Positions 3,426 through 56,918 of a DNA stretch of 58,978 bases are shown here, one piece after another. The stretch's first letter is position 1. The number at the start of each line of letters is the position of its first letter. The position numbers were made by a program, and so were the translations under genes. The notes beneath the pieces are model-generated. The model searched no databases. It worked only from the letters and a program-made list of their open reading frames with translations, and was not told the DNA's origin. This stretch comes from an uncultured Erysipelotrichaceae bacterium (GTDB lineage Bacteria; Bacillota_I; Bacilli_A; Erysipelotrichales; Erysipelotrichaceae), in the NCBI GenBank assembly GCA_945877405.1, contig CAMCSA010000010.1, positions 1-58,978 on the forward strand, in the 5' to 3' direction.

Positions 3426-3471
3426 AAAAAAACATCCATGTTCAGCATACGCATTACTGTCACATGGATGT
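3426..3471 (-). terminator. Leader terminator (expression platform) before the CDF gene
   Basis: Minus-strand ACATCCATGT and ACATGGATGT form a perfect 10-bp stem with a 20-nt loop and a T7 tail, inside the 5' leader about 50 nt before the CDF start. Its 5' arm overlaps the 3' arm of the last aptamer helix, so the two folds exclude each other. Confidence 0.85.
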
Positions 3472-3531: not shown

Positions 3532-3606
3532 TGTACCGTATTCGCAGTGCAAAGAGATGACAATATTAACGCATGTCAGTCAGATATTAGTCAAGCGTAA
3601 CATCAG

Positions 3607-36365: not shown

Positions 36366-36539
36366 ATGTCAAGAACAAAGAAAAAAGAATTCAAGTCCAT
36401 GAATATCCTCATGGATATCCACACAAGAGAAAAGCTGGATGCTTATTGTGAACAGACAGGACTGACAATGACAAAAGCCATTGAACGTATTCTTGATCAG
36501 TACTTCGATGACTACTTTTCTACCCCTGAAAAAAACTGA
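36366..36539 (+). CDS. Small ribbon-helix-helix DNA-binding protein
   Basis: A 57-residue protein, below the length of most gene-calling cut-offs. Translation gives a basic N-terminus (MSRTKKKEFKSMNILMD), then a strand and two helices in the pattern of Arc/MetJ/CopG proteins (MDIHTREKLDAYCEQTGLT, then TKAIERILDQYF). AAGGAGATCCAA precedes the ATG, and a strong terminator follows, so it is a complete single-gene unit. It probably binds one of the symmetric sites in the 414-bp region upstream. No toxin gene is adjacent, so it is more likely a free regulator than an antitoxin. Confidence 0.8.
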   Translation: MSRTKKKEFKSMNILMDIHTREKLDAYCEQTGLTMTKAIERILDQYFDDYFSTPEKN

Positions 36540-36861
36540 TCATTCATGTTCACACGATTACTGATCTGGAGGCAGCAATGCGCCTCCATTTTCTTTTGAC
36601 TTTCATGCATTCAGAGCAGTTCACATCATGGATATCTGTACATCTGGAAACATTTCCTTTCCCATATTTCCTGAGATTCTTCCGGTATTATCACATATTT
36701 GTGTTATCATAATTCTAACAGTACACGTATATAGATATATGCTGAGATCATCTGGCACAACAGTGTGCAACAGGTATGCATCATTGAATGATGAATATTG
36801 ACTTCATTGCCTGTCATATGAATGGTTCTGATCAGATTATTTCAGCTGATTCGAGGAAATT
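36540..36861. other. Intergenic region before the PBP-GGDEF gene
   Basis: 322 bp containing the terminator of the small gene and a short inverted repeat TCATTGAATGATGA near 36780. No consensus promoter or ORF stands out. Confidence 0.4.
36567..36598 (+). terminator. Intrinsic terminator after the RHH gene
   Basis: TGGAGGC-AGCAATGC-GCCTCCA followed by TTTTCTTTT. Confidence 0.9.
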
Positions 36862-39054: not shown

Positions 39055-39065
39055 CCTAGAACAAA

Positions 39066-39122
39066 AGTCACTTCGTGACTAAAATACAGTAAATTGCAGA
39101 TGCGTTAGTATCTGCTTTTCGT
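39066..39122 (+). terminator. Tandem hairpins after the PBP-GGDEF gene
   Basis: AGTCAC-TTC-GTGACT (39067-39081) and GCAGAT-GCGTTAGT-ATCTGC followed by TTTTCGTT (39096-39122). Confidence 0.65.
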
Positions 39123-39142
39123 TATGTTGTATAATTTGTAAT

Positions 39143-39514
39143 TTGTACATAACAATTGATTGCTACCTTTACTCTGATTACCCATATGAAGGTGCTTATA
39201 CCTGTGATCAGCCAAATTACGATGTTAACAAACCTCGCTTAAAGCAACTGTTCTGGGAAAACTATGAATATGTTCAAGAACTTGAAGCACAAGGTAAAGC
39301 CATACCAATCGTACTTGATACACTTCAACAAGCACTTCTATGTCGTACAGAATATCTTGGTTATGATGCTTTTGAATGCCCAAACTGTGGTAATGAGTAT
39401 GTTGTTTATCATCACTGCCATTGTAAACTATGTCCTTCCTGTGGAGTTAAAACGCAGCGTAAGCTTGCCGTTCAGGCTGATCATATGTGTCTGGATGTAA
39501 AACACAGGCATTAA
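39143..39514 (+). pseudogene. Truncated zinc-finger transposase (N-terminal fragment)
   Basis: The frame encodes about 120 residues ending in a cysteine-rich zinc-binding domain (FECPNCGNEYVVYHHCHCK, then LCPSCGVKTQRKLAVQADHM), like the N-terminal domain of IS91/IS1294-type HUH transposases. Those are usually about 400 residues; the catalytic HUH and tyrosine region is absent. The only start in frame is TTG at 39143 with no ribosome binding site. It is cut off close to the convergent ATPase gene, so it is a remnant. Confidence 0.65.
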
Positions 39515-39555
39515 TGGAAAGAACGATTCCTCTTGTTTCCAATATGACCTGCATA

Positions 39556-40896
39556 TTACAGAAATGGAACCATATAAACAGGAATATAATGAATTCCGTT
39601 TTCCCACTTGTAATCCTTTGTATGGACAACATATCTGTCTTTAATTCGATTGCTGAAAGTATCACAGAATACATCCAGGGATTTGTGATTTCTGTAGTTG
39701 CCGGATTTCACTTCTATCGGACATATCTTATCACCAACGGATATCAGAAAATCAATTTCATACAGATGATTTGAAGATAAACTTGGCATTGTGTAATAAA
39801 ACAGGTTATGCCCTTTGGCTGTCAGCATCTGCGCAACACAGTTTTCATAGATGTAGCTAAGATTTGTATCCAGTTTATCAGAAAGCAGTTTATTATATAT
39901 GACATTTTCCGTGTAATTCTTATCTTTATATACAAGTGTGATAAACAGTCCTGTATCAGAAGTAAACAGTTTATATCTTCCAATGTCCTTCTCTAATGAC
40001 ATCCCGATAGCCGGATTATTTGCGTGATATCCAATATTCACAGTATAGGAGCTCAACATATCCGGAATCAGTTCACGGACTGTTTCTGAACGTATTCCTG
40101 CTCTGGCATTTGATAACACATATCGGGATGTATTGGAACTCAGGCTGGCAGGTATGGAATCAAAGATATCTCCAGCAAGACCGGTACCATCAATTTTGAT
40201 GAAATCCTCTTCATACAGATCAATGATTTCTCTTTTGGTTTCATCCACTGACTGCAGATAATTATGTTCAAGGTATGTTTCTATTGCCTGTGGCATTCCA
40301 CCAATCAACATATACAGTCTGAAAATACGCATCAGATTTCGATGCATTGCATTACCTGCAGGTTTTTTCTTCTGCAGTAATAACCGGATCGTATCCGCAG
40401 TAATATCGTCTCCTATTGCCCACAGGAATTCCTCAAAATCCATAGGATACATGGATATCTTATGTTCTTCACTTGGTATCAGAATATCTCTTGTATTTTT
40501 CCTTATGGATAACAGAGATCCTGTTTCGATGTAGCTGTATCTTCCATCCGCAACAAGATACTTGATTGCCTGTCTTGCCTTTGGAAACAATTGCACTTCA
40601 TCAAAAATAATCACCGACTCATGTTCATATAATCTTGTTCCCGTAAACTGTTGTAACTGCAGAAAGAAGAAATCCAGATCGTATGTGTCATCAAATAGAT
40701 CCATAATTGCTTTACTTGTATGTGCAAAGTCAATCAGGATGTAGGACCTGAATTCACTTTTAGCAAACTCTTCAGCGATAGTAGACTTGCCAACACGCCT
40801 GGCACCTTTGATCAGAAGTGCATATTTATCACTACGGTTTCTTTTCCACTCCATGATTTCGTCATATATTTTGCGTCTGAATACTGTTTTTGCCAT
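39556..40896 (-). CDS. AAA ATPase with DUF4143 domain
   Basis: A 446-residue protein. Walker A is IKGARRVGKSTIAEEFA near residue 33 and Walker B is VIIFDEVQLFPKAR near residue 100. The DUF4143 domain fills the C-terminal half (TGLFITLVYKDKNY; FYYTMPSLSSNHLYEIDFLIS; KICPIEVKSGNYRNHKSL), with D and E-x-K resembling a PD-(D/E)XK nuclease core. These proteins are common solitary accessory genes of unknown role. The leader contains a 33-bp tandem repeat. Confidence 0.85.
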   Translation of the reverse strand: MAKTVFRRKIYDEIMEWKRNRSDKYALLIKGARRVGKSTIAEEFAKSEFRSYILIDFAHTSKAIMDLFDDTYDLDFFFLQLQQFTGTRLYEHESVIIFDEVQLFPKARQAIKYLVADGRYSYIETGSLLSIRKNTRDILIPSEEHKISMYPMDFEEFLWAIGDDITADTIRLLLQKKKPAGNAMHRNLMRIFRLYMLIGGMPQAIETYLEHNYLQSVDETKREIIDLYEEDFIKIDGTGLAGDIFDSIPASLSSNTSRYVLSNARAGIRSETVRELIPDMLSSYTVNIGYHANNPAIGMSLEKDIGRYKLFTSDTGLFITLVYKDKNYTENVIYNKLLSDKLDTNLSYIYENCVAQMLTAKGHNLFYYTMPSLSSNHLYEIDFLISVGDKICPIEVKSGNYRNHKSLDVFCDTFSNRIKDRYVVHTKDYKWENGIHYIPVYMVPFL

Positions 40897-40930
40897 ATTG
40901 ATTTTTACTCTCCACAGAAAGAATAACGCA

Positions 40931-41062
40931 AATCCCTATTCATGTAAACCGGATTTCTACGTAAATCCCCGTTCATATAAATCATTTTTTCACTTGAATC
41001 CCCGTTTATACATCGCCATTTTATACGAAAATCCCCGTTTGTTAATGAATTTCCTGTATTTC
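40931..41062. repeat. Four-unit 33-bp tandem repeat
   Basis: The core AATCCCCGTTYAT recurs at 40931, 40964, 40997 and 41030, an exact 33-bp period. Units diverge in their second half. 33 bp equals 11 codons; on the plus strand the units read NPRSYKSFFHL-like peptides, but no initiation signal supports translation. It lies immediately upstream of the DUF4143 ATPase. Confidence 0.75.
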
Positions 41063-41091
41063 GGGATGTTTATTCATTTGAATTGAAGGAA

Positions 41092-41119
41092 ACGGTACAT
41101 ACCTGAAATCATGTACCGT
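41092..41119. terminator. Hairpin ACGGTACAT/ATGTACCGT
   Basis: A perfect 9-bp stem with a 10-nt loop, followed on the minus strand by TTTCC and on the plus strand by CATTCTTATTCTTT. Confidence 0.5.
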
Positions 41120-41137
41120 CATTCTTATTCTTTCCAT

Positions 41138-41314
41138 TCAATAATGCAATGCAGTTTCTTCACTATGGATTATCCGTAAATCATATACTGAATATTTACT
41201 CATATCTGCAATGGAACATTTCACTTTGTGATCAACACAGCTGTAAGTCACCAATAGCATTGCAGAAATATCATTTTCATCCCAGGATATTCTGAAGGTA
41301 CTGAAACAATTCAT
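41138..41314 (-). CDS. Possible short protein or gene fragment
   Basis: An ATG-started frame of 58 residues (beginning MNCFSTFRISWDENDIS, with LLVTYSCVDHKVKCS in the middle) followed by a hairpin. The composition looks protein-like but there is no ribosome binding site and no family match. It may be the tail of a lost gene. Confidence 0.25.
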   Translation of the reverse strand: MNCFSTFRISWDENDISAMLLVTYSCVDHKVKCSIADMSKYSVYDLRIIHSEETALHY

Positions 41315-41398
41315 GCAAAAGCTACGATCAGCAACAGAAACAGCGGATGATTTACAACGTAATAATTCCAAAGCAGCGTCAGACCAACACCATCGAAA

Positions 41399-41429
41399 GA
41401 AAAACAGCCTTTACATCCATAAAAGCTGT
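41399..41429 (-). terminator. Terminator after the chimeric ORF
   Basis: Minus-strand ACAGC-T-TTTA-TGGATG-TAAA-G-GCTGT followed by T5, directly after the stop. Confidence 0.7.
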
Positions 41430-41430
41430 C

Positions 41431-41856
41431 TTACCAAAATATCTCTATCGTATTGGTGTAATCAGTGTTAGCACGTGCCAGCGCATCCACAGCAACACAT
41501 ACAGTCATGTATGTCATATCATCTTTTCCTTGTACGAATGAAGTGAATTGACTCAATTTCTTCAGCAAAGTATTGTCACCTTTATCATAGATCCCCTGTT
41601 GCTCACTTGCCTTTGTCGCAAGTAAATACATTTTGCCATCATTGGCAGAGATACTGGTATGTGAACCGGTAACGCTTGTATTGGAAACAAACCAGGAAAG
41701 TGTTAATACGATAATCACAGTAATTCCAGTTACCATGATGACTCCAGTTTTAAGAAAAGTAAGGAACATGGTTTTTGCCGCATTCAGATGTGCTTGTGCA
41801 GATTTCCTGTATTCCTCAGCTGTATGTGGCTTACTGTTGTTTTGGAACAGACCCAT
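41431..41856 (-). CDS. Chimeric ORF: surface-protein N-terminus joined to an XRE/GyrI regulator C-terminus
   Basis: A 141-residue frame with a good AGGAGG. Residues 1-95 resemble the start of the surface protein at 54410 (HTAEEYRKSAQAHLNAAKT against KTAEEYRASAEAHKNALIS, a hydrophobic segment, then LSWFVSNTSVTGS). The last 30 residues (DDMTYMTVCVAVDALARAN and onward) match the C-terminus of the regulator pseudogene at 45289 at both DNA and protein level. The product would be a short membrane-anchored stub. It looks like a recombination scar of a lost second copy of the surface operon. Confidence 0.6.
   Translation of the reverse strand: MGLFQNNSKPHTAEEYRKSAQAHLNAAKTMFLTFLKTGVIMVTGITVIIVLTLSWFVSNTSVTGSHTSISANDGKMYLLATKASEQQGIYDKGDNTLLKKLSQFTSFVQGKDDMTYMTVCVAVDALARANTDYTNTIEIFW
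41446..41526. repeat. 80-bp direct repeat, copy A
   Basis: Nearly identical to 45290-45369 (one indel and few substitutions), spanning GTATTGGTGTAATCAG through TATGTCATATCATCTTT. It encodes the shared C-terminal peptide. Confidence 0.85.
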
Positions 41857-42036
41857 GCATTTTCCTCCTTGTAGTTGTGGTGATGGTTTATTCTACCATA
41901 AACTATATATACTTTAATAGCGTATAGTCATGAAATGACGTAAAACTGGTGCATCTTACGCATTAAACCTAAATATCTGGTATGAATGTTCAGTTTTATT
42001 ATCAGTGTATGTTGTTCATCCCCGTATTGATTTCAA

Positions 42037-42068
42037 TCTATACTCATTTTAGAATAATTCTATACTCA
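42037..42068 (+). promoter_or_regulatory. LytTR-type direct repeat operator
   Basis: TCTATACTCA occurs exactly twice, at 42037-42046 and 42059-42068, with a 12-bp spacer (22-bp period), the spacing expected for a LytTR dimer. The second copy contains TATACT that can act as -10; the first covers the -35 position, which has no consensus, suggesting autoactivation. Confidence 0.6.
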
Positions 42069-42096
42069 GACTGTTCCTGAAAGGAGGTCATACGGT

Positions 42097-42900
42097 ATGG
42101 AGTCCAAACACCTTACAATCATTTCCAAAGGAAAGAAAATCATATTGAATACAAGTACAATCCTGTATGTACTGATGGCAGGTAAAACTGCAGAAATACA
42201 TGTATCCGGTGGCAGAGTATATGAAACAAGAATGACACTGGCTGAACTGGAAGATTTACTGGATGAAGGATATCTGAAGATTCATCGTGGATGTATTGTA
42301 TCTGTCATGGCAATCCATGACATTACAGATCGGATTAATCTCATCAACGGGGAATCCTTAAGCTATACCGTAAGAAAAAAGAAACAGATCATGGATCAGT
42401 TTCTTTCCCAGCAGAAATCCATCATTCATCAGTTCAATGTTTCCGATACTCCTGTCACAACAGAAGAATACAGAAAACACTACAGTGGATTTGATAACAT
42501 GCCTTTTGCTTTTACGGATATAGAAATGGTATTCAATGAAGAAAAGCGTGCCACAGACTGGATCTTCCGTTATGCCAACCAGGCTCTGGCAAAACTGGAA
42601 AAACAGCCATTAGAAAAACTGTTAGGGAGTTCCTTTGGAAGCATCTTTTCCAATATGGATGAGAAGTGGTTGCGGGCATATGAAAGAGCTACCTTATACC
42701 AGGAAGTACTGGAAATCATTGATTACAGCCCTGAAATCGATACAACCCTCAAGATTATATGCTTCCCTACCTTCCCAGGACATTGTGGATGCATCCTGTT
42801 TGATATTTCTGAGATTACACTTGTACAAAGCAGTGTCGATGCCCAGAATGCATTACTCAGATATCTGAAGAAATCACGTCATTCATCTGATAACCAATAG
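42097..42900 (+). CDS. LytTR DNA-binding protein with C-terminal PAS-like domain
   Basis: A 267-residue cytoplasmic regulator. Residues 1-105 form a LytTR domain (TSTILYVLMAGKTAEIHV, MTLAELEDLLDEGYLKIHRGCIVSV). The remainder looks like a PAS sensor (FDNMPFAFTDIEMVFNEEKR, WIFRYANQALAKLEKQPLEKL, SSFGSIFSNMDEKW). LytTR before PAS is the reverse of the usual receiver-LytTR order. AAAGGAGG precedes the start. Upstream lies a 10-bp direct repeat that fits LytTR binding. The EAL gene follows after a terminator. Confidence 0.85.
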   Translation: MESKHLTIISKGKKIILNTSTILYVLMAGKTAEIHVSGGRVYETRMTLAELEDLLDEGYLKIHRGCIVSVMAIHDITDRINLINGESLSYTVRKKKQIMDQFLSQQKSIIHQFNVSDTPVTTEEYRKHYSGFDNMPFAFTDIEMVFNEEKRATDWIFRYANQALAKLEKQPLEKLLGSSFGSIFSNMDEKWLRAYERATLYQEVLEIIDYSPEIDTTLKIICFPTFPGHCGCILFDISEITLVQSSVDAQNALLRYLKKSRHSSDNQ

Positions 42901-42928
42901 CCATGGAAATACAATGCATGGCTTTTTT
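42899..42928 (+). terminator. Terminator after LytTR gene
   Basis: AGCCATG...CATGGCT 7-bp stem with T6, overlapping the stop codon. Confidence 0.85.
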
Positions 42929-43072
42929 CTTGTCGTTTGATGCCATATCCATGTTGTTTTATTCCATGTATCCATGATTCAGATCATTCCTTCCTTATAA
43001 TATTAGGATAAGTTACCCCAATGAAAGGAGCGCAGAACAGAAATCCGAATCCCTTCTCTGCATGAATAACCT

Positions 43073-45019
43073 ATGAAAATCCTGTACTTTGACTTATCTG
43101 CAATCCTTGTACTGATCGTCATGATTGCATTGCTGTTTCAGCGAAAAGACCGATCAAACTTAACCAATAAACTGCTGATGATGGTATATTTGAATGTACT
43201 GGCAACAACCATCTTTGATTTATGGTCTGAAGCATATAATATCTGGTTTCTTGCTACAGAAACAGACAGTACATTCCGTTATTTCCTGTATTACGGCTAT
43301 TTCTTCAGCCGTAATCTGACTCCACCATTATTCCAGCTGTATTTATGTTCCTTAACAGATACATGGCATATTCTCAAGAAGAAAAAATGGATGCAGCTGT
43401 TATTCATTGCACCATATGCAATGGTATGTCTGTTATTATGTTCAAACATATTTTTCCATGAGGTATTCTACTTTGATGCAGATCTGATCTACATCAGAGG
43501 TCCGTTATTCTATGGTCTGCATCTATGTGCATTCATGTATTTCCTGTCAGGAATTACCTTTTTGATCCGATTCAGGAAAGTACTTGCTGCAGATAAGCTC
43601 ACAGCATTAATCTGTTTCTATCCATGGAATCTGATTGCTATTTTGATTCAGGCATTTGTTCCTGAATTCCTGGTCGAAATGTTTCTGAATACCATGTCAT
43701 TGCTGCTTATATCCAATATCGTACAAAGACCAGAAGAAGTCATCAATCCGATCATCGGGATTCGAAGCCATATTGCCTATACAGCAGATATGAAGAAATC
43801 ATTCTATCTGAAAAAGCCGGTTCATATACTGATTGCTAAAATCGTCAACTATGAATCATTGCTGACAATATTAGGTAACGATGCATGCAATGGCATGATG
43901 AAACATGTATCTGATCAGATGAAAGATGCCTTGATCAGAAAAAACAATACAGCTGAGCTGTATTATCTGGAAAACGGCATGTTTGCTGCTGTATCAGAAT
44001 CAGAAGACATGCAGTATTACAGAGATGCATCCAGTACATTTGCCAACGCCATCTATGGCTCCTTCCAGTATGGAAAGCTGGAATTAGAAATGGATTCATG
44101 CCTGAGTGTATTCAGGTGCCCACAGGACTTTGACAACTATGACAGCATGATGTCATTCATCCATTCTTTCTATTCCTACCTTCCTTCTGGTGGTAACGTT
44201 ACATTCCTTGAGGATGAAAACGATAACCGGAAGTTCAGCTTCCACTTAAGAAATGAGATTGACCGTATTCTCAGTACAGCCATTGCTGAAAAGAAGTTTG
44301 AGATGTATTATCAGCCGATCTATTCCGTAACAGAAAATAGATTCAAATCTGCTGAAGCATTAATCAGACTTAAAGATGAAAAGTATGGATTCATCTCACC
44401 ACAGTTATTCATTGCTGCAGCAGAAAAGAATGGTACCATTCTTCAGATTGGTGAATATGTACTGGATGAAGTATGCAGATTTATGGCAGAATGCAGTAAA
44501 AACAGATTACCAATTGAATACATAGAACTGAACCTTTCCATGAAACAGTGTGTACAGATGGATCTGAAAGACAAGGTATTATACTACCTGGATAAATATG
44601 ACCTGAAACCTGAACAGATCAATCTGGAAATAACTGAAACAGCAGCAAATACATCCCAGGATGTCGTTGATCATAACATGAGTTCATTATCTGATCATGG
44701 CGTATCCTTCTCTTTAGATGATTTTGGTACCGGTTATTCCAACATCAGCAGAATCATTTCCTTACCATTCCATATCGTAAAAATCGATAAAAGCATGACA
44801 GATAAAGTATTCGATCCTAAAATCAATGCTGTATTGAAATACAACATCCAGTTATTAAAAGAGATTGGTATGGAAATTGTCGTAGAAGGAGTAGAAACAG
44901 AAGATGTACTCAATGCATGTAAAGACATGGGTTGTGACTATATCCAGGGATACTACTTCTCTAAACCATTACCACAACAGCAGTTTGTACAGTTCATCAC
45001 TGCTCATTGTGCATCATAA
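43073..45019 (+). CDS. Membrane cyclic-di-GMP phosphodiesterase (degenerate GGDEF plus EAL)
   Basis: A 648-residue protein. About seven hydrophobic segments occupy residues 1-215. A degenerate GGDEF domain follows (YYLENGMFAAV replaces R-GGDEF), then an EAL domain with intact AEALIRL (E428-A-L), ELNLS, LEITETA, DDFGTGYSN and VEGVET, so c-di-GMP hydrolysis is expected. The -10 TATAAT at 42996 lacks a good -35. It is the likely counterpart of the two diguanylate cyclases at 33852 and 36862. Confidence 0.9.
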   Translation: MKILYFDLSAILVLIVMIALLFQRKDRSNLTNKLLMMVYLNVLATTIFDLWSEAYNIWFLATETDSTFRYFLYYGYFFSRNLTPPLFQLYLCSLTDTWHILKKKKWMQLLFIAPYAMVCLLLCSNIFFHEVFYFDADLIYIRGPLFYGLHLCAFMYFLSGITFLIRFRKVLAADKLTALICFYPWNLIAILIQAFVPEFLVEMFLNTMSLLLISNIVQRPEEVINPIIGIRSHIAYTADMKKSFYLKKPVHILIAKIVNYESLLTILGNDACNGMMKHVSDQMKDALIRKNNTAELYYLENGMFAAVSESEDMQYYRDASSTFANAIYGSFQYGKLELEMDSCLSVFRCPQDFDNYDSMMSFIHSFYSYLPSGGNVTFLEDENDNRKFSFHLRNEIDRILSTAIAEKKFEMYYQPIYSVTENRFKSAEALIRLKDEKYGFISPQLFIAAAEKNGTILQIGEYVLDEVCRFMAECSKNRLPIEYIELNLSMKQCVQMDLKDKVLYYLDKYDLKPEQINLEITETAANTSQDVVDHNMSSLSDHGVSFSLDDFGTGYSNISRIISLPFHIVKIDKSMTDKVFDPKINAVLKYNIQLLKEIGMEIVVEGVETEDVLNACKDMGCDYIQGYYFSKPLPQQQFVQFITAHCAS

Positions 45020-45288: not shown

Positions 45289-46032
45289 TTATCGTATTGG
45301 TGTAATCAGATTAGCACGTGCCAGCGCATCCACAGCAACACATACAGTGATGTATGTCATATCATCTTTCTGGTATACATACTCAAAGCAGCATACATAT
45401 TCATCACTGAGATTCTGTCTGCATCCATTGGCATTGAAATACTCCATGATCTTCTTATAGGCATTAGGAATATATTCAAATGCTCTTTTAAATGGATTAC
45501 GAATGGTAATGGATGCATATTCTGTTTCTTTCTGACTGGCAATTTCCACACCAGGGCATAATGGTACAAAACCATCTGGAAGGATGTATGCTGATACATA
45601 CCCTCTTAAACCATAACGATTCCGTTGCTCTGCAGATACAAACGGGAAATCCCATCCAATACATGCAGGTTTACCATCTGTAACAGAAAGAAGTCCACTT
45701 CTTTGTGCCCATGCTTCCATATAAACATGTACATCATCTTCTGGATCAGGACTGATGATGACATACCTGCCCATTGTAAAGCCAGATACCTTGGTAACCT
45801 TGACATCTGAATATACATTCATCCTTTCCACAAGAGTCACTCGTATTAGTTCATCTACCTTGCAATGGAATACATCAGCCAGTTCCACTAACTTTGGAAT
45901 TTCAGGATACGCCTGATTCATTTACCACTTGGATATTGTCTGTCTGGATACAGACATCTGATCTGCAAACTCCTCCTGTGTGATCTTATTGATCTTTCGT
46001 AAATACTGGATGTTCTCTCCCAGGTTCATCAT
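45289..46032 (-). pseudogene. XRE-family regulator with GyrI-like domain, broken by a nonsense codon
   Basis: Reading from ATG at 46032 (AGGAAGG upstream) gives an XRE helix-turn-helix (IQYLRKINKITQEEFADQMS, then VSRQTISKW). An in-frame TAA follows at 45924-45922, then the frame continues QAYPEIPKLVELADVFHC and into a GyrI/effector-binding domain (FTMGRYVIISPDPEDDV; FEYVYQKDDMTYITV). The expected codon after TGG is GAA, so one G-to-T change made the stop. An ATG directly after it opens a 210-residue frame lacking the DNA-binding half. The extreme C-terminus differs by a one-base indel from copy A of the repeat. Confidence 0.8.
45290..45369. repeat. 80-bp direct repeat, copy B
   Basis: Partner of 41446-41526; forms the 3' end of the XRE/GyrI pseudogene. 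Confidence 0.85.
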
Positions 46033-46920: not shown

Positions 46921-48096
46921 ATGATTAACATCGGTATTGATGTCGGTAAATTCAAGCATTGTGCTTCTGTCATAGATGACAAGACCGGCGAGATTCTTAT
47001 AAAGCCTTTTTTCTTCAATAACGATCAGAAAGGCTTTGATCTGTTCTATTCTAAAACCAAACAGTATATTCATATAAAACATTCCGTTGGTATGGAAGAC
47101 ACTGGTCATTATATGATCAATCTTACAAATTTTCTTTTGGATAAAAAGTTCACTGTTAAATTTATCAATCCCAGATCTACTTGTCTCAGACGTAAAGAAC
47201 TTGGCATGTCAGCCAAGAATGATCGCAAAGATTCTATTCTTATTGCAGAAATGCTCAGTGAGAAAAAATCCTGGAGATCTGTAACTCACACAACACAAGA
47301 AACTGATAAGCTTCGTGAAATCACACGTCTGTATTATCAGTTACAGGAACAGCAGAATGAAGATATGAATCGCCTTCAACGTGCTTTGGATATTGTCTTT
47401 CCTGAAGCAAACAAGCTCTCCTGGACACGCTATTCTAAGGCCTATATGCAATTCTTAGCCAAGTATCCTACTGCTGCTTCTATTGCCTCTGAAGACATCC
47501 GCAATCTTCGTAATGCCCTTAAAACTGACGGACGTGGCAGACAATGTAAGCTCACTGCTGAAGATATCAAAGAAGCTGCCAAATGTTCTGTTGGTGAAGA
47601 TAACATTGCGGTTGCACTCGAAGTGCAGTCAATCATAGCTATTATCAACACTCGTAAGCAACAAATCGAAAAGCTGGAAAATAAAATAGAAGAATTCAGC
47701 CTGAAACTAAACTCTCCTATCATTTCCATCCCTGGCATTTCTCACATAACAGGAATGACCATCATTGCGGAGATTGGCGATATTCACGATTTTTCAGACG
47801 CCGCACATCTGATATCTTATGCCGGCATGGAGCCCCTCGTACACCAGTCTGGGAAATACGACGCTGCACATATGCCAATATCCAAACACGGATCTCGGTA
47901 TTTGCGCAAAGCATTGTATCAAGCGGTTTTTACCGTCTGTAAATATTGCTCAACCTTCAATGCTTATTATACCAAGAAACGCAATCAAGGTAAAACACAT
48001 CGTTGTGCACAAGGTCATTGTGTACGCAAGCTGTTACGTGTCATCTACAAGCTTTTAGCGAACAATATTACATTCGATGAAAATCTAGTCAAATAA
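46921..48096 (+). CDS. IS110-family transposase (DEDD recombinase)
   Basis: A 391-residue RuvC-like recombinase. The acidic tetrad is visible as D7 (IGIDVGK), E59 (GMEDTGHY), D101 and D104 (KNDRKDS), spaced as in IS621. The C-terminal Transposase_20 domain carries IPGISHITGMTIIAEIGDI and a conserved serine in VHQSGKY, then SKHGSRYLRKALY. A coiled coil joins the two (about 235-262). AAAGGAG precedes the start. The frame is intact, so the element may be active unless the insertion after the gene destroyed its right end. Confidence 0.95.
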   Translation: MINIGIDVGKFKHCASVIDDKTGEILIKPFFFNNDQKGFDLFYSKTKQYIHIKHSVGMEDTGHYMINLTNFLLDKKFTVKFINPRSTCLRRKELGMSAKNDRKDSILIAEMLSEKKSWRSVTHTTQETDKLREITRLYYQLQEQQNEDMNRLQRALDIVFPEANKLSWTRYSKAYMQFLAKYPTAASIASEDIRNLRNALKTDGRGRQCKLTAEDIKEAAKCSVGEDNIAVALEVQSIIAIINTRKQQIEKLENKIEEFSLKLNSPIISIPGISHITGMTIIAEIGDIHDFSDAAHLISYAGMEPLVHQSGKYDAAHMPISKHGSRYLRKALYQAVFTVCKYCSTFNAYYTKKRNQGKTHRCAQGHCVRKLLRVIYKLLANNITFDENLVK

Positions 48097-48740: not shown

Positions 48741-49040
48741 TTGGCGCTTACAATCAAGGTAAAGCCACTGTGCCAGCCTTCGGGCTGGCATTATTTTGTC
48801 CAGAGGACTGGTTATTTACCATATACTGACATGAAAGCCATGAGTCGTTGTCTGAATTTTGGTAAGAGCGTCATGGATAACAGCCCGTCCAGCAAAAAAT
48901 GCTGTATGTGCGGAAAGGTGAAAAAAGAACTGAAATTATCCGAGCGGATCTATCGCTGTGACTGTGGAAGTGTCATGGACAGGGACAAAAACGCAGCAAT
49001 CAATATCCGTGAAGAAGCGCGGAGAATGCTGACTGCATAG
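48741..49040 (+). pseudogene. TnpB remnant with internal deletion
   Basis: The second half of this frame is the C-terminus of a TnpB (IS200/IS605 or IS607) protein: DMKAMSRCLNFGKSVMDN, then PSSKKCCMCGKVKKEL and YRCDCGSVMDRDKNAAINI, the four-cysteine zinc ribbon and last RuvC Asp. Normally about 25 residues lie between VMDN and PSS and are missing, and the whole N-terminal three quarters is gone. A hairpin GCCAGCC-TTC-GGGCTGGC followed by ATTATTTT at about 48771 occupies the upstream part, so the first 30 codons are not real coding sequence. Confidence 0.8.
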
Positions 49041-49215
49041 GCAGGAAGCAAAAAAGAAAATACGTCCGTATCCGGACAAAGTAATAAAAATGCCCGTATC
49101 CGGGCAAAAACAATCGCGGGGCACGCGAGGGTAGCCTGCAGATACTTGGCTCATGAGAGCCATTGAACAGGAAGCCCCCACTTCATAATCTTTGATTTAA
49201 GTGGTGGGAGCATGT
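49041..49215 (+). ncRNA. TnpB-associated 3' RNA (omega/reRNA) and element right end
   Basis: Directly after the tnpB stop come two similar hairpins (GTCCGTATCCGGAC and GCCCGTATCCGGGC), a GC-rich segment, and the right-end hairpin CCCACTT...AAGTGGTGGG (49177-49208). This is the typical layout of the guide-like RNA that spans the 3' end of tnpB elements. With tnpB deleted it is probably a fossil. Confidence 0.55.
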
Positions 49216-49370
49216 CACTACAATATGATATATGCCCGTACTACTGAAACGCCGTGGTTTTCTTGCCATATTTTTCACCTCTTCGTATGGTCTTAGAAAT
49301 ACTCCTCTTTGTGTGGTTTCAAACTACCTTGCGTGGTTTAGAGAGTAGCCACAAATAGAACGGTCACCAT

Positions 49371-49411
49371 AAAAAACCAGGGGACGGATGCACCACTGCT
49401 CCGTCCCCTGG
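49371..49411 (-). terminator. Strong terminator after the surface operon
   Basis: CCAGGGGACGGA/TCCGTCCCCTGG, perfect 12-bp stem followed on the minus strand by six T. Confidence 0.92.
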
Positions 49412-49428: not shown

Positions 49429-52400
49429 TTATTCTGGCGAAACGCTTATGCTTTGACCAGCAGTAAATGTATTGCCATTCAAGGTTGCAGTATAACCATC
49501 TGATATCGTATCTTCCTTAATAGATATATCCTTTGTGGTAGATACAGTCACAGTATAAGCCGTTGCTTTATCCTCGAATTCAACTGCTTCCTCACCTATC
49601 TGGGGATAGTCTGTATCCACGATCGTTGTCAATCCATTTGCTTCAAGTTGAGGCAAATCAAATGTATTCACCACCGTAGTTTCCTTTGGCAGAATATAAT
49701 GGTAATCCAGTATTCCAGTTCCACCCGCAACCGATGTATCATCATCTGTTGCAGCCTGTTCTACTCCATCAACAGTTACTTTATACGTTCTGTCTTTTAG
49801 TGCCCCATTCTCTGTCGTCTCTGTGATTGTCGTAATCGTGGTTTTTGTAACCTTTGTTGTCGTATTATACTCGATCCTTGTAATCTTCTTCTCCGTAACA
49901 ACAACTGTACTTTTGGGGAAAACTGTCATTGCATTTCCACCAGAATCTTTCAAAGTCAGATCATCACCTTTGTAAACGGCTGTCCCTGCACCTGAGAATG
50001 TAACCGTGTCGTTTTCCCGTTTAATCTCTACTGTCTGATTGTCGTCATTTAAAGCCACAGCCACGGAATTTGTATCGACAATCGGCTTACTATCGGTCGA
50101 AGTGACCACCTGTAACCCCTTTGGATATTCATAAGTATTCGTTGTTGTGGTGGTTACTTCGGTAATCTCCTGACACTGAACCTCCTGTGAATTTGCTGAG
50201 ATATCCAAGTAAATGAGATATGCTCCAATTCTTCCGTCAACTGAACCTAACGCATACTCACCGGCATTTGCAGGCACCTCAAAATAATACAGGGCACCTT
50301 TATAGCCATTCGACGAAGTACCTACACAAGTGCCAAGGTCAGGCTCCATAATCCACTTCAGATCAAAAATCAATTCTGAATCGTCATGGGTCTTACCATC
50401 AGAGCAAATATTGTTTACCGAATCCGCAAAAAGATATGCATAGGTTTCATTTCCCAAATCATAAATCTTACTGATTTGTCTGATTGCAGTAATGTCACCA
50501 TTTTCATCGCGGAATATTTGATGCAAAGAAAAGAATGTATTATTGTTCGTAAAATAGCTGCCCGCAAAGAAATTTATGAAGCCTGCTTCCTTTAAAGTAA
50601 AATCAATACAATCTCTGGGCATCTTAAAGTCATAATAATCTTCATCGTTGATAACAGCATGCGGAATTGTCACAACATTATCAACACTAATTTCCGCATC
50701 CATAAAATGAAGACCATATAAGTATCCGGTCTTACTTGCGTTTAGATGACTATGCAAAATATCTCTGGAATCCTCATACTTTTTCAGTCCCAAGGTAGTG
50801 TAGTCTATTTTTTGACTATACTGCTTACTAAGTGTTGTATTGACAGAGGTATTATTTTTATTATAGTTATCCTTAATGCGGACATACTTACCCCCTGACT
50901 GTGCTGTAATTGTCACAATTTCCAGGTTCGTTCCACCTTGAGCGGAGTACTTTTTATCTGACGCATTATTATTAGAATAATAAAGATGACTAAAGTTAAA
51001 GAAATCAGACGAGACTCGAATATCACCCGAATTCATCAGATAATTTGAGTTGGCCGAATTCGCATAGTTCGAATCCGTATATTGCGCACCACTGATGATA
51101 TAGCCTGTGTTATTGCGTTGAACCCCGTAGCCATCCTTCGTGTCTGCTGCCAGAGGGACAAAAGAATCTGGCGTCAAATAGCTGCTGTCTTCGTTGATAG
51201 TTGTTGTTGTGGTCTGCTCATAAGTGCCATTCTCATTCTCCAATTCAACGGTAGTGGCTGCCTCCATTTTTCCTTCCTGCCGGGATGCAAGCGAGCCATT
51301 AATATATTTTTCTATCACAGCTCTCGTTACATTCTTTGAAGGAGTTAACGACCAAGTACTTCCATTCAAATAAATATAATAGTACGTACGCCAAGACTTA
51401 GTATAACAGTAACCACTACTATCTATATACCATGATGTATTCCCTCCAGTTGAAATGGTAAGACTAGTATTGTCCCAACTCCGGCTCAAATTTAAGTAAT
51501 AAGTTGTCTCATTAGAGACTGTTGACAGGTAGTTATTGCTATACGTCCACAAAGATGCATTTGACTGATCCGTTGTCGTGATGTCCCCATTCTGTACGGA
51601 CAAATAAGAATCACCCGAGGAAATCGTATATTGCTCTGGCTCTGCGTTCCAGCTTTCATTGTCAAACAACAAATAGTAGTTTGTTCCATTGTTCTGACAA
51701 TAGATGCCCTTCTCGTCGATATACCACGTTGTTTCCGTGTTAGCGTCTAATCTATTATTATATCCCAGATAATACGTTGTATTCCCATCTGAATACGATA
51801 TCCTATACCCTGTTCCACTACTGGTAAAGCTCCAATGTGTCGCTTCTGCTTCTGTCTGCGTATTTGTGAAGACACCATTACTACATACCAGGTAATTCGT
51901 TCCGTCTGTAATATAATAATACTTTGTCTGCGGACTTAATGACCATTCTCCTGCATCGCTGCACGCAAGATAGTACTTTATTTCGACAGAATCACAATAA
52001 ATAAAGTTACTAGCCTTACTCCATATCGTATCGGGGGTTTGCGATATAGAAAGATCATTATTATTTCGGTTCAAGTAATACTTCGTATTATCAATATATG
52101 TAAAGATATACCCGTCTTCCGAAGTAATATCCCAGACAGATGAACTCTGGCTGAGTGTTACACCATTTGTTATTCCGCTTCCGTTCGCGGTAAGGTAGTA
52201 AGTTCCGTTTGAAATATAAGTTCCTTCATACGCGACCAGTTTTGTTTGGGTGGTAGTTACCGTTTTAGAATATGGAATCTCTTTTTCACCATACAGCAGT
52301 ACGAACGATTTATCACCAGTCGACCTTTTACTGAATGTCACGCGTCCGGCATTTGTCTCTGAATTGATACTACTATCATCATATGAAATAATATTATTAT

Positions 52401-53493
52401 TCTGCGCAGTGGTAACATTCTCTGTGACAGTCCGGTTGCCATCAATATCAATTACGACAGTTTTTTCCGTGGAATATGTAACTGGTTGTGCCTGATCATA
52501 CATTCCACTGAGTCTTGTATACAAATCCTCCATCGAAATCGATCCGCCCCAGGCATCACCAGAATCTTGATTCTGAAACTTGGATAACTTCACCACGGGC
52601 GCAGCCTGATCCACATAGACCACATCAACCGTATCTTTATATGCCTCCGTACAATACCCAACCAAAGAATAATCCGATAAATTAGATGTATAAGATAATG
52701 CGGTAACTGTACCGTCAATCTTGATGTTTGAGTCAATAACTCCCACATTCTCCACGGTTCCGTTCACATACCCCACAGCAACGCCAATGAGAGAATCACT
52801 TGTCTGTGTCTCTACGGTTAATCCGCTTATATAAAGATTTTGCACCTTATTCGTAATACTGCTATACGTATAGCTTCCGAAAGTCGCATTCGACTCATTT
52901 CCGATTGTAGCTTTATCAAGTGTTCCAACCACACCAAACAGGCCGATGATCTCCACATTTTCGACCTCATTTACATCATCTATTACTAATGTATATGGTA
53001 AATCTTTAATTGAAGTTCCGCTGCCGTTAACCTTATTAGTAACAGTTAGCCCACTAACGCTATGACCACATCCATCAAAATTACCCAAAAATGGATTTAC
53101 TGATGTGCCAATTGGAGGCAATACATAACCAGTCATATCAATATCTGCTGACAGATAAAAATATGTTGTCGGAATCGCAGTCCCTCCCTCTTCCGGTTGA
53201 TTAAAGTAGCCCATATACTGAAGCCACGCCAGATTATAAAACTGCTCTGCAGTCTTGATCTCATATGCACAGCCTTCTTCGCTGACGATATTTCCTTCTT
53301 CGTTATACTTGGCATGTTCAGGACCTGTTCCGTCACCGGATTCAAAATATTTGGTCAGATAGGTAACTGCACCATCAATCTGATTTAAGTTCACTTTATT
53401 CGAATCGTAATACCAGGCAAAAGTTCCTCCAACGAGCAGGATGAGCGCTGTACATACTACTGCAATCATGGTTGTGATTTTTGTTTTTTTCAT
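49429..53493 (-). CDS. Large surface protein with SipW-like signal and tandem trefoil-like units
   Basis: A 1354-residue exported protein, last in a three-gene operon. The N-terminal segment (MIAVVCTALILLVGGTFAWYYDS) resembles SipW-type signals of TasA-like proteins. Next is a GLUG-like beta-solenoid region (NPFLGNFDGCGHSVSGLTV; IGLFGVVGTL; VENVGVIDS). About residues 440-720 hold three tandem units of roughly 90 residues, each with repeated YYL and W positions and ending WSLSP, WNAEP or WSLTP, as in beta-trefoil lectin domains. The C-terminal half is Thr/Val-rich without an LPXTG motif or membrane anchor. AAAGGA precedes ATG 53493. Adhesion or matrix role is inference. Confidence 0.75.
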   Translation of the reverse strand: MKKTKITTMIAVVCTALILLVGGTFAWYYDSNKVNLNQIDGAVTYLTKYFESGDGTGPEHAKYNEEGNIVSEEGCAYEIKTAEQFYNLAWLQYMGYFNQPEEGGTAIPTTYFYLSADIDMTGYVLPPIGTSVNPFLGNFDGCGHSVSGLTVTNKVNGSGTSIKDLPYTLVIDDVNEVENVEIIGLFGVVGTLDKATIGNESNATFGSYTYSSITNKVQNLYISGLTVETQTSDSLIGVAVGYVNGTVENVGVIDSNIKIDGTVTALSYTSNLSDYSLVGYCTEAYKDTVDVVYVDQAAPVVKLSKFQNQDSGDAWGGSISMEDLYTRLSGMYDQAQPVTYSTEKTVVIDIDGNRTVTENVTTAQNNNIISYDDSSINSETNAGRVTFSKRSTGDKSFVLLYGEKEIPYSKTVTTTQTKLVAYEGTYISNGTYYLTANGSGITNGVTLSQSSSVWDITSEDGYIFTYIDNTKYYLNRNNNDLSISQTPDTIWSKASNFIYCDSVEIKYYLACSDAGEWSLSPQTKYYYITDGTNYLVCSNGVFTNTQTEAEATHWSFTSSGTGYRISYSDGNTTYYLGYNNRLDANTETTWYIDEKGIYCQNNGTNYYLLFDNESWNAEPEQYTISSGDSYLSVQNGDITTTDQSNASLWTYSNNYLSTVSNETTYYLNLSRSWDNTSLTISTGGNTSWYIDSSGYCYTKSWRTYYYIYLNGSTWSLTPSKNVTRAVIEKYINGSLASRQEGKMEAATTVELENENGTYEQTTTTTINEDSSYLTPDSFVPLAADTKDGYGVQRNNTGYIISGAQYTDSNYANSANSNYLMNSGDIRVSSDFFNFSHLYYSNNNASDKKYSAQGGTNLEIVTITAQSGGKYVRIKDNYNKNNTSVNTTLSKQYSQKIDYTTLGLKKYEDSRDILHSHLNASKTGYLYGLHFMDAEISVDNVVTIPHAVINDEDYYDFKMPRDCIDFTLKEAGFINFFAGSYFTNNNTFFSLHQIFRDENGDITAIRQISKIYDLGNETYAYLFADSVNNICSDGKTHDDSELIFDLKWIMEPDLGTCVGTSSNGYKGALYYFEVPANAGEYALGSVDGRIGAYLIYLDISANSQEVQCQEITEVTTTTTNTYEYPKGLQVVTSTDSKPIVDTNSVAVALNDDNQTVEIKRENDTVTFSGAGTAVYKGDDLTLKDSGGNAMTVFPKSTVVVTEKKITRIEYNTTTKVTKTTITTITETTENGALKDRTYKVTVDGVEQAATDDDTSVAGGTGILDYHYILPKETTVVNTFDLPQLEANGLTTIVDTDYPQIGEEAVEFEDKATAYTVTVSTTKDISIKEDTISDGYTATLNGNTFTAGQSISVSPE

Positions 53494-53517
53494 GCCCGTC
53501 ATTCCTTTCATTTCATA

Positions 53518-54393
53518 TTACTGTGTTGAGACAGGTGTAACCTGCAACATGCTAAGATCCCCTACAAATGACAGAAGCTGGGTCTGCCCCAACTTTCCTA
53601 CCTTAAAATTTCTTTCATGGTTTTGAAGGTACGCTGCAGTTAGATGTTTCTCGTAATCAATCTCAACATAAACATATAAGATTTCATCCTCTGTCAATTC
53701 ATAACCCGCATCGAGACTCCAGGTAATCTCATTCGTTGTCTTTGTGACTGTGTAGATTTTTCCAGATTTGGTTTGTTCAGCAAATGTATACTGCCCGCCA
53801 ATAGCATCAAAAACGACTTCTGCTTCCTCATAAATTTTCTGTGCGTTTTCCCGCGTACTCTTGTAGTCTTTTAAAGATGGGATAATAGCAAACTTAAACA
53901 CTGCTATATTTGTCAGGTAATTAATGATTTTGTTCTCCTCAATGTGAAGATCAGTGTTTGTTTCCTTTGCCTTAAGACCATACTCATCAGAACAGTATTC
54001 ACTCAGTTCGTCAGTATTTGCTCTTGACAGAGTGAACCTAAGTGCCTGTTTATCATCTACACATGTTCCGCTGACTGGAATTCTCAGGATAACAGCTGTG
54101 TCTGCATTACGCCCAAATACCGAGTCATAAGTTGACAAAGTTACATTTTCCAGTGAATTTAATACTTTATATGTTTTATTGCCGTCACTGGTGCTACGCA
54201 TAAATATGGTATAGTCCCCAAGAATCGCATCACTTTCTTCTTCAGTAATAATTTGATTTTCTTTACCGTCTGTTTTCCTGTTGTTGGAAAACCAGGAATA
54301 CGATCCAATAATAAGAAGAAAACTTGCAAGCAACAACGTAAAAGAAAGCAGCTGTGTTTTCATCCGTTTCGACCATTGATTATTTTTTCGCAT
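53518..54393 (-). CDS. Exported protein with SipW-like signal
   Basis: A 291-residue protein, second gene of the surface operon. Residues 10-33 form a signal or anchor (LLSFTLLLASFLLIIGSYSWF followed by SNNRK), with the S-Y-S-W-F-x-N-N pattern shared by the other two products. The rest is soluble and beta-rich (DYTIFMRSTSDGNKTYKVL; ILYVYVEIDYEKH). No named family; TasA/camelysin-like by signal type only. AAAGGGGG precedes the start. It ends 24 bp before the large protein. Confidence 0.7.
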   Translation of the reverse strand: MRKNNQWSKRMKTQLLSFTLLLASFLLIIGSYSWFSNNRKTDGKENQIITEEESDAILGDYTIFMRSTSDGNKTYKVLNSLENVTLSTYDSVFGRNADTAVILRIPVSGTCVDDKQALRFTLSRANTDELSEYCSDEYGLKAKETNTDLHIEENKIINYLTNIAVFKFAIIPSLKDYKSTRENAQKIYEEAEVVFDAIGGQYTFAEQTKSGKIYTVTKTTNEITWSLDAGYELTEDEILYVYVEIDYEKHLTAAYLQNHERNFKVGKLGQTQLLSFVGDLSMLQVTPVSTQ

Positions 54394-54409
54394 TAAATCG
54401 CCCCCTTTA

Positions 54410-55471
54410 TTACGTTGCGTTTTCTACGCCAACAAGTGAAAATGTTACTGCCACAGGAAAATCAATTCCTGCGGTGATTGTCTTAAGTGCCTGTGCATCA
54501 GTTCCTTCCAGCCAAACATACATATCAAGTACAAGTCCAGTACTATTGGCTGTTCCTAACATTTTTGAATTGTTCTGAGTAGTATATTCATTATCGCTCT
54601 CTGCGATTTTAACTGCTGTAATTTCTTTTATGGTTCCAGAGTCATAATAGGCAGTAATATTCGCTATATCAGCTGCCGCTGTTCCGTTAATCCCTTGATA
54701 TACGTCATCACTAGCATACATACTATTCCCTTTGCCCTCTTCTGCTTCGGGGACATAATATACAAGTACGTTACCTGTAATATGATCAACAATCGCTATT
54801 CTAAGTGCCTTCTTGATCTTATCAGCTTCTGCTTTTCCAGCATCTGTAGTTACGCTATCTGCATAACTCACAGTGATAGGATTATCAGGATTTAAATACA
54901 CATCCAAAGAACCTCTATCTGTATAAACATTAAAAGGTTGTTTATAGTAGGCGGTATGCGATTTATTGAAACTGTCTGTATAGGTCACAGCCATGTCAGC
55001 TTCCATGTCAGCTTCATTCTTACCTGTTACTTCGCCATAACCGGATACAATGGGCCTGGTAGCAATACCATCGCCACCTTCTTCCGAAGGAACAACCTCT
55101 GCTACCCATTCCTTAGCATAATACCACTTCTTACAATCTACTGTCGATATAGGATACAGGCCTTTGCTCTCATTACTGGCACTTCCTGCCACTGAATCAT
55201 AATACTCCTGGGTTGCTCTTGTTCCCAAAGCTATAAAAAGCGAAGGTGTCTGTGTTTCAGAAGTTATAGAACTATTCTGTACTGAAACCTCCTTATTATT
55301 TGCAAGCCATCCCAAAGTTAATGCACCAATTGCTACTAAAGCAACACAAAAAAACATTCCCGTTCGCAAGAATATCTTCCATTGTGATATGAGAGCATTC
55401 TTATGAGCCTCCGCAGACGCTCTATATTCTTCAGCAGTTTTATTAGAATCATTACGGTTAAACACCATCAT
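54410..55471 (-). CDS. Exported protein with cytoplasmic N-terminus and SipW-like segment
   Basis: A 353-residue protein, first gene of the operon. A charged N-terminus (NKTAEEYRASAEAHKNALIS) precedes one hydrophobic segment (MFFCVALVAIGALTLGWLAN) ending in the W-x-x-N-N pattern. The exterior part is beta-rich with repeated S-Y-A-D and Y-Y segments. Residues 1-95 are similar to the chimeric ORF at 41431. The start at 55471 is eight bases after AGGAAG; the longer frame from 55555 has no site. Function unknown. Confidence 0.7.
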   Translation of the reverse strand: MMVFNRNDSNKTAEEYRASAEAHKNALISQWKIFLRTGMFFCVALVAIGALTLGWLANNKEVSVQNSSITSETQTPSLFIALGTRATQEYYDSVAGSASNESKGLYPISTVDCKKWYYAKEWVAEVVPSEEGGDGIATRPIVSGYGEVTGKNEADMEADMAVTYTDSFNKSHTAYYKQPFNVYTDRGSLDVYLNPDNPITVSYADSVTTDAGKAEADKIKKALRIAIVDHITGNVLVYYVPEAEEGKGNSMYASDDVYQGINGTAAADIANITAYYDSGTIKEITAVKIAESDNEYTTQNNSKMLGTANSTGLVLDMYVWLEGTDAQALKTITAGIDFPVAVTFSLVGVENAT

Positions 55472-55585
55472 AATTAACTCTTCCTTTTGGGGGCATTTTC
55501 TCAATTGTAAAATACCTTGTCCTTTGGTAATGTTTATATTTATTCCTGACAGCAAATTTGATTAAAATCACACTTCAATGCGTAA

Positions 55586-55614
55586 ATACTATCAAAAAAT
55601 CCACCAAAAATCAA
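55586..55614 (-). promoter_or_regulatory. Candidate promoter of the surface operon
   Basis: Minus-strand TTGATT and TAGTAT with a 17-bp spacer, about 115 bp before the first start codon. Confidence 0.35.
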
Positions 55615-55903: not shown

Positions 55904-56317
55904 CTATTCGTGATAATTCTCGTAATATCCGGCTATCCTGTTTTTTAATCTTTCAAACAATGGATAGTATATTTTCACAATATCTTCAAACTTTTCCATC
56001 GCAAGACTTCCATCATAGTCATGAGCCAATTGATTTCTTACACGAAGCATCTGCATCCACTGATCACTATCAATGATTCTATTCACAAATGCCTGCTGCA
56101 AGGTTTCTCTTGGAGAACCTGTTGCAAAGTCAAGAACTTCCATCTGCTTCACCAGGATATCCTTCATGACCTTCCATGCAATATCAAATGTCAAATTAAA
56201 ATTTAATACGGTTCCTTCTAAAACAAAATCCTTTTTGGGGTCTGCATATCTGCTTTTTTCAAGATTCTTCAAACTTTTGCAAAAAGTATTGTAGCGATTA
56301 ATATATTTGTTTTCCAT
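55904..56317 (-). CDS. HEPN toxin of a type VII HEPN/MNT pair (HepT-like)
   Basis: A 137-residue all-helical HEPN protein of the nucleotidyltransferase-substrate-binding group. The catalytic R-x4-H-x-Y motif is present as RNQLAHDY near residue 98. Family members are RNases neutralised by AMP addition from the partner. GGAGG lies 12 bases before ATG 56317; the longer frame upstream overlaps the partner and is not used. It overlaps the partner's 3' end by 20 bp, a coupled pair. Confidence 0.8.
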   Translation of the reverse strand: MENKYINRYNTFCKSLKNLEKSRYADPKKDFVLEGTVLNFNLTFDIAWKVMKDILVKQMEVLDFATGSPRETLQQAFVNRIIDSDQWMQMLRVRNQLAHDYDGSLAMEKFEDIVKIYYPLFERLKNRIAGYYENYHE

Positions 56318-56579
56318 ATTTTTGTATATCCTCCAATAAATATTCGTTCCGAATACTATCATAGTCAAAAATATCAATTTTGCGAAGCGTGTCAATTTCC
56401 TCCAGATCTTTTTCCAGTTTCAATATATCACCACATCCATACACTACAAAATCAATATCACTGGTCGGCAATGCTGTTCCGGTTGCAAACGAGCCAAACA
56501 AATCCAGTCTTCTGACCCCATTTTTTCTACAAATACGCTCCACTTGTTCAATTAGTTCCCGAATCGGCATTACATTCAT
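56298..56579 (-). CDS. MNT nucleotidyltransferase antitoxin (MntA-like)
   Basis: A 93-residue minimal nucleotidyltransferase. The motif LDLFGSFATGTALPTSDIDF gives G-S and D-x-D, the catalytic signature. The start at 56579 has AAGGAAGGG; a 66-codon upstream extension reads through untranslated sequence. Expected to AMPylate the HEPN toxin encoded downstream. Confidence 0.82.
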   Translation of the reverse strand: MNVMPIRELIEQVERICRKNGVRRLDLFGSFATGTALPTSDIDFVVYGCGDILKLEKDLEEIDTLRKIDIFDYDSIRNEYLLEDIQKYGKQIY

Positions 56580-56918
56580 TTTTTCCCTTCCTTTATTAAG
56601 TAATAACATCCACCGGGGACAGACAAAAAGCCATTTTCTTCGTCCCCTTTGGCTCATTTTCTCTCTATTATATCTGTATTTTATCAAATCCTTGAAAGAA
56701 TGCAATCGTACATACGTATGTGCCTTTGATTTGTCTTCCCCAGTCATCATCATTAACGAGGAGAGCGCAATTGGCACCGATTTTATGAGCTCCAGACGTT
56801 GTAATGATTCTGCTTTCTTTCAAATGTACTTGTTGCCAAAGTCTGCTCTCCTCCTACAGGGCTGTCTGTTGTTGCAGCGTCCTTTCCCCGCCAGGGCAGG
56901 ACATTGGATCTATCCCCT
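56580..56918. other. Region without a recognisable gene
   Basis: About 340 bp with no coding signal, repeat or promoter that I can support. Confidence 0.4.

Follow-up and report, generated by a model that had tools for sequence, protein, structure and literature searches.

P1-P3, a three-gene surface operon of an uncultured Erysipelotrichaceae bacterium, as probable cargo of a SipW/CoCoPALM-type filament system

Which machinery processes three neighbouring surface proteins that carry SipW-type signal segments when no SipW peptidase is encoded beside them? This question is raised by the window analysed here, the whole stretch of 58,978 nucleotides (contig CAMCSA010000010.1, assembly GCA_945877405.1) from an uncultured Erysipelotrichaceae bacterium, whose minus strand contains three adjacent open reading frames (ORFs), P1, P2 and P3, separated by 16 nt (P1/P2) and 6 nt (P2/P3). 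An earlier sequence-only reading had proposed that they could form an undescribed matrix or adhesin assembly. We consider, with a probability of about two in three, that P1-P3 constitute a surface cargo operon of a SipW/CoCoPALM-type filament system, the core of which lies on another contig (C8) of the same genome. SipW-dependent assembly, as earlier proposed, is well supported, but the operon would be cargo of an already named system rather than a new system standing alone, because the SipW genes sit in a CoCoPALM-type locus and P1 appears to be TasA-like. The best reading of the roles is that P1 is a pilin, P2 an adaptor and P3 a giant adhesin, processed in trans by the CoCoPALM/SipW machinery; assembly and adhesion are inferred.

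SipW-type signals and a core locus on another contig

We found that each of the three products begins with a single N-terminal hydrophobic segment followed by a W-aromatic-type motif (Table 1), just as had been read from the sequence. P3 reaches 20.6 bits with the NCBIfam model TIGR04088 "SipW-dependent-type signal peptide", whose cut-off is 19. In the DNA sampled from the same genome, 10 of the 26 ORFs with an N-terminal membrane segment carry the motif, and all ten are P1-P3, a broken paralogue of P1 or genes of the SipW locus. Since the carriers are confined to SipW-related genes and the motif arises in shuffled sequences at 3.4% per ORF, its presence in P1-P3 is not due to chance. Neither an LPXTG-type sorting signal nor a C-terminal membrane segment was found in P1-P3, and sortase-dependent pili or adhesins were ruled out on this basis.

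The lack of a nearby SipW gene holds for the window but not for the genome: the whole-genome search that had been suggested as a check detected two archaeal-type (SipW-type) signal peptidase genes on contig C8. Both exceed the cut-off of TIGR02228, and the best match to the SipW equivalog model has an E of 6e-28, below the cut-off of that model. The two genes, SipW1 and SipW2, flank a GTPase-DUF2357 pair. First in the order of the locus are four pilin-like genes, whose products have signals of the SipW type; next come SipW1, the AAA-family GTPase, the DUF2357 protein and SipW2, then genes for EAL and PilZ proteins and for the membrane protein M384, a cyclic diguanylate (c-di-GMP)-I riboswitch and two more pilin-like genes. 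The GTPase is McrB-like and combines a Walker A motif with a shortened NxD motif, GTANNDD, residues 61-79 being a membrane segment; a motif of the GTxNxDD type is present in 26 of 29 surveyed relatives. Of the fused transmembrane and coiled-coil, FtsB-like region that marks a CoCoPALM GTPase, the membrane segment is thus present, while a simple heptad test detected no coiled coil; a crude heptad score pointed to coiled-coil-like stretches between residues 346 and 605 of its DUF2357 partner (PF09823, E=2e-12). Judged by its genes, the C8 locus fits the published outline of CoCoPALM, systems that Bell et al. (eLife 2024, PMC11090510) named in about one paragraph and left for later work. Elsewhere in the survey, three GTPase-DUF2357 loci (L180, L185 and L187) had no SipW detected nearby; proteins of about 2500 aa adjoin the pair in L180 and L185, and L187 contains extra GTPase copies. 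These may be variant systems that serve different cargo.

P1 as a pilin-like subunit and P2-P3 as a conserved pair

The link between P1 and the core relies on a pilin-like profile built from 53 proteins encoded in CoCoPALM-type and P2-P3 loci, none of them from the window. P1 matches it with E=4.6e-25, and its mature part alone with 1e-17 to 4e-18, while the best of 6000 shuffles reached 0.014. A search of the same genome with the profile returned P1 and six C8 genes as members, M384 and the P3 signal giving partial matches only, and the family was found in 22 of 28 GTPase loci. By these profile matches P1 is a pilin-like member of the C8/CoCoPALM-type substrate family. In agreement, its AlphaFold2 (AF2) model (mean predicted local distance difference test score, pLDDT, 67.5) consists of a long helix followed by a beta-sandwich, and a comparison with the whole PDB ranks the TasA fibre first and the archaeal thread filament second; with a second aligner, bundling pili and chaperone-usher pilins were also among the matches. 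The TasA match is supportive and not proof, because its scores are weak (Foldseek E 3.5e-3, Z 6.4), and it gains weight because several of the top matches are donor-strand pilus subunits. It had been stated that no TasA homologue is encoded nearby, which must be revised, as P1 itself appears to be the TasA-like component. Conventional searches gave little: P1, P2 and P3 have no Pfam match, including the TasA/camelysin family PF12389, which is also without a match in the genome, and Pfam, NCBIfam and PHROGs together returned almost nothing for them. Sequence-profile searches of the PDB with P1 or P2 found nothing useful, and scans of 84,980 genomes for close relatives of P2, or of P1 and its paralogue, found none.

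Relatives of P3 surfaced only in a class-level search with its C-terminal 591 residues, in 10 of 394 other genomes of the class and at least five families, with up to 44% identity over about 506 residues; viral contigs lack the C-terminal pattern. P3 is immediately preceded in each of the ten genomes by the gene of a P2 homologue (247-337 residues), nearly always with the same signal type as P1-P3, and the intergenic distances range from -35 to +27 nt. A profile of 12 such upstream proteins, from which the window sequence was excluded, recognises window P2 with E=1.4e-18 and its mature part with 1.1e-10, whereas 5000 shuffles did no better than 2e-3. P2 and P3 are a conserved pair.

P3 is a probable adhesin. 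The AF2 model predicts three beta-trefoil modules, which match ricin-type lectins and fascin with Z 9-10; a single module superposes on ricin-type lectins with a root-mean-square deviation of 2.3 A over 96 residues (Z about 9.4). The modules vary in number among P3 relatives, as seen from repeated matches. Adhesins often hold modules in varying number. The C-terminal domain (residues 770-1175) is the best conserved block and could be assigned to no fold; Foldseek with the whole 1200-residue model returned uninformative matches, only the trefoil region giving a clear answer. The N-terminal region (A8 profile) matches weakly a putative IgA1 protease (PDB 3n6z). Two assignments were discarded: matches to the diphtheria toxin repressor (E 0.08-0.7) were judged to be chance, and membership of the P3 N-terminus in the pilin-like family was indicated by an iterated profile search but not by the independent profile. 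Near other CoCoPALM loci, we also found proteins that share only the N-terminal region of P3 (L183:16918-19392 and L168:18809-20000), so that this region may be a common module on different large cargo.

Link to the core and rival explanations

A GTPase of this kind is encoded in 10 of 10 P3-positive genomes compared with 134 of 394 overall (hypergeometric p=1.6e-5), a test that treats related genomes as independent, the ten belonging to about six genera, which counts against our interpretation. A SipW-type peptidase is also present in all ten, in nine by TIGR02228 and in the tenth as a SipW-like gene in the core locus beside the GTPase. In one genome (G572, locus L101) the pair lies inside the core, between the pilin-like genes and SipW1, in the order EAL, M384-like, two pilin-like genes, riboswitch, P2, P3, SipW, GTPase, DUF2357, SipW, and in another (G496, L108/L169) it adjoins the core locus. 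In most of the 12 P2-P3 loci, the pair lies apart from the GTPase. A c-di-GMP-I riboswitch lies upstream of 9 of the 12 pairs, mostly immediately upstream (L101, L102 twice, L103, L104, L105, L106 and L107) and about 220 nt away in L110; none precedes the pairs of L108, L109 and L111. Core operons are also preceded by riboswitches, and the one in the C8 locus is the sole confident c-di-GMP-I riboswitch of its genome. As a separate observation, three c-di-GMP enzymes lie close together in the window (33852-45019), beside a LytTR regulator (42097-42900).

If P1-P3 are cargo of the C8 core, Sec would export the three proteins, the N-terminal segment would keep them tethered, and one of the two C8 peptidases would cleave ahead of the tryptophan motif, as motif and co-occurrence suggest. 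The freed P1 may then polymerise with C8-type subunits through exchange of donor strands, as TasA does, in line with its family membership and weak fold match. P2 would serve as adaptor or anchor for P3, which would display its three lectin-like modules at the filament tip or in the matrix, and the membrane-anchored NxD GTPase, together with the DUF2357 protein, would act as motor or gate of assembly. In the relatives, expression of P2-P3 would follow c-di-GMP through the riboswitch. In a more general and tentative form, possible rather than probable, CoCoPALM would be a GTP-driven, membrane-anchored machine assembling TasA-like donor-strand pili in Gram-positive bacteria, and P2-P3 an exchangeable, species-hopping tip cassette of adaptor and giant lectin-type adhesin, normally switched by c-di-GMP and servable in trans by a core located elsewhere.

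Several observations weigh against the cargo interpretation. P1-P3 and the C8 core are on separate contigs, and their interaction is something we infer. A riboswitch or other Rfam RNA was sought before P1 and the window operon and was not found. P1 and P2 stay below the TIGR04088 cut-off although the motif is present, the mature part of P2 does not match the pilin-like profile, and the P1 model is of modest confidence with weak fold scores. Co-occurrence of the genes in other genomes, on which the sequence-only reading had staked its proposal, holds for P2-P3 in all ten, and P1-family genes lie directly upstream of the pair in three of the ten only. P1-P3 could instead be SipW-dependent matrix proteins independent of the McrBC-like GTPase, comparable with TasA/TapA or BsaA, that are simply secreted and polymerise spontaneously; P2 would then act as chaperone or starter in the way of TapA, and P3 would cross-link the matrix and not be an adhesin at the tip. 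This is the main rival because SipW-dependent fibres of TasA and BsaA need no such motor: they form with SipW and no dedicated ATPase is reported (PMC9674648, PMC7395162). The fold match of P1 to TasA and the many pairs located away from the GTPase also agree with it. Nevertheless, we regard it as unlikely, given the GTPase in every P3-positive genome and the loci (L101 and L108/L169) with the pair within or adjoining the core.

It is quite unlikely, in our opinion, that the operon is what is left, non-functional or orphaned, of a surface locus that was acquired horizontally and kept among insertion elements. The absence of P2 relatives and P3 C-terminal relatives from the family, the broken P1 paralogue, the IS110 and TnpB remains and the missing riboswitch would suit such a remnant, but the three ORFs, the ribosome site and the terminator are all intact and the genome encodes a complete SipW/GTPase core. 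Barely credible is a chance similarity of the W-aromatic motif in ordinary signal-anchored surface proteins cut by the normal signal peptidase: apart from the low TIGR04088 scores of P1 and P2, which it would account for, it has to face three carriers out of three against the shuffled rate, the recurrence of the motif in homologues across families, and homologous pilin-like genes adjoining SipW genes. The cargo interpretation remains the one that we favour.

Origin, known relatives and meaning

The operon with its terminator was found as previously described, including the perfect 12-bp hairpin followed by six T at 49411-49371; its loop exceeds the length allowed by the terminator scan tool, and the stem was identified from the sequence. 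P1 most likely starts at the ATG at 55471, behind an AGGAAG ribosome site, rather than at the TTG at 55555. The length of 1354 residues given earlier for P3 applies if the second ATG is used; from the first ATG it has 1360.

Acquisition had been proposed from composition and from insertion-element flanks. Base composition was rejected as an argument, as the neighbouring 35-47 kb are equally AT-rich, and the insertion elements are present on the 3' side only; distribution, by contrast, supports the proposal. No P2 relatives were seen in the family, its 272 other genomes contain no P3 C-terminal relatives and only weak N-terminal (GLUG-like) matches, and the six genomes that the survey lists for the same genus are without SipW. 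Because of these absences, the relatives in other families, the 3'-side insertion-element remains and the broken P1 copy, the operon was probably gained horizontally, with later rearrangement. The broken copy runs into 59 nt that are 98% identical to part of the neighbouring GyrI-like gene (45289-45921, minus strand) 3.8 kb away, and this junction is a recombination scar. The stretch 48741-49300, just downstream of the operon terminator, holds the C-terminal fragment of TnpB and, close to it, remains that resemble a transposase. Directly upstream of the operon, on the minus strand (55904-56777), a nucleotidyltransferase and a HI0074/HepT-like substrate-binding protein form a pair that resembles a type VII toxin-antitoxin, below its cut-offs. 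A NiCo riboswitch (RF02683, 60 bits) lies at 3455-3539 on the minus strand.

Table 1. Coordinates in the window of the P1-P3 operon, of regions within its products and of neighbouring features
Feature	Position	Strand	Description and basis
P1	54410..55471	-	353 aa; pilin-like; about 38 cytoplasmic residues, membrane segment, predicted beta-sandwich, conserved YVWLEGTD near C-terminus
P1 membrane/signal segment	55301..55357	-	Hydropathy; motif LGWLANN
P2	53518..54393	-	291 aa; small exported partner of P3
P2 membrane/signal segment	54295..54351	-	Hydropathy; motif YSWFSNN
P3	49429..53511	-	1360 aa; giant exported repeat protein, probable adhesin
P3 SipW-type signal segment	53416..53472	-	TIGR04088 above curated cut-off; motif GGTFAWYYDSN (FAWYYDSN)
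P3 conserved N-terminal region, residues 66-325	52537..53316	-	GLUG-like; family profile
P3 residues 426-727	51331..52236	-	Three predicted beta-trefoil modules; AF2 model
P3 conserved C-terminal domain, residues 770-1175	49987..51204	-	Best conserved family block; mostly 36-48% identity across families
Intrinsic terminator	49371..49411	-	12-bp perfect stem CCAGGGGACGGA/TCCGTCCCCTGG, 11-nt loop, T6; from sequence
Broken second P1-type gene	41431..41856	-	N-terminal ~85 residues, motif LSWF; P1 search E=2e-11, 36% identity
Complete IS110	46921-48096		3' side of operon
TnpB tail (C-terminal fragment)	48741-49040		3' side of operon
GGDEF proteins with sensor domains	33852-35951; 36862-39054
EAL protein	43073-45019

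Compared with known systems, the operon, as well-supported cargo of a recently named system, adds new families in a new functional context and is not a wholly new kind. CoCoPALM shares with the C8 locus the NxD McrB-like GTPase with a membrane segment, the DUF2357 partner and proteins of the signal-peptidase family; the published paragraph (PMC11090510) names pilus assembly factors only and does not mention cargo, a P2-P3 adhesin pair or riboswitch control, and P1-P3 are encoded apart from the core. The TasA/TapA/SipW system of Bacillus subtilis also has SipW-type signals and archaeal-type signal peptidases, and P1 has a predicted beta-sandwich that weakly matches that of TasA, whereas P1-P3 lack a PF12389 match and differ in gene order, and the giant P3, the GTPase, EAL, PilZ and the riboswitch are found on this side. 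In the excerpted account of Clostridium perfringens sipW-bsaABCRSD (PMC7395162), a SipW-dependent secreted protein polymerises into pellicle fibres and the operon has extra secreted proteins; that account describes two-component control and a BsaA of about 23 kDa and does not mention the GTPase or DUF2357, and we set the system apart on its description. Donor-strand subunits also build the archaeal thread (Saci_0406) and the Pyrobaculum bundling pili, the second and later fold matches of P1, and the thread subunit is freed by a type-I signal peptidase; these systems are archaeal, and the excerpted descriptions mention neither a giant lectin-type adhesin nor a McrBC-like GTPase.

A relative of the CoCoPALM-type GTPase is encoded in about one third of the class genomes sampled, 135 of 395. 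P1-P3 supply what CoCoPALM may build and carry, namely TasA-like pilins and a conserved pair of adaptor and giant adhesin that almost no Pfam or NCBIfam model recognises. They also connect surface structures controlled by c-di-GMP with an enzyme family familiar from DNA restriction. Indeed, concrete genes are now available for asking whether such a GTPase assembles filaments.

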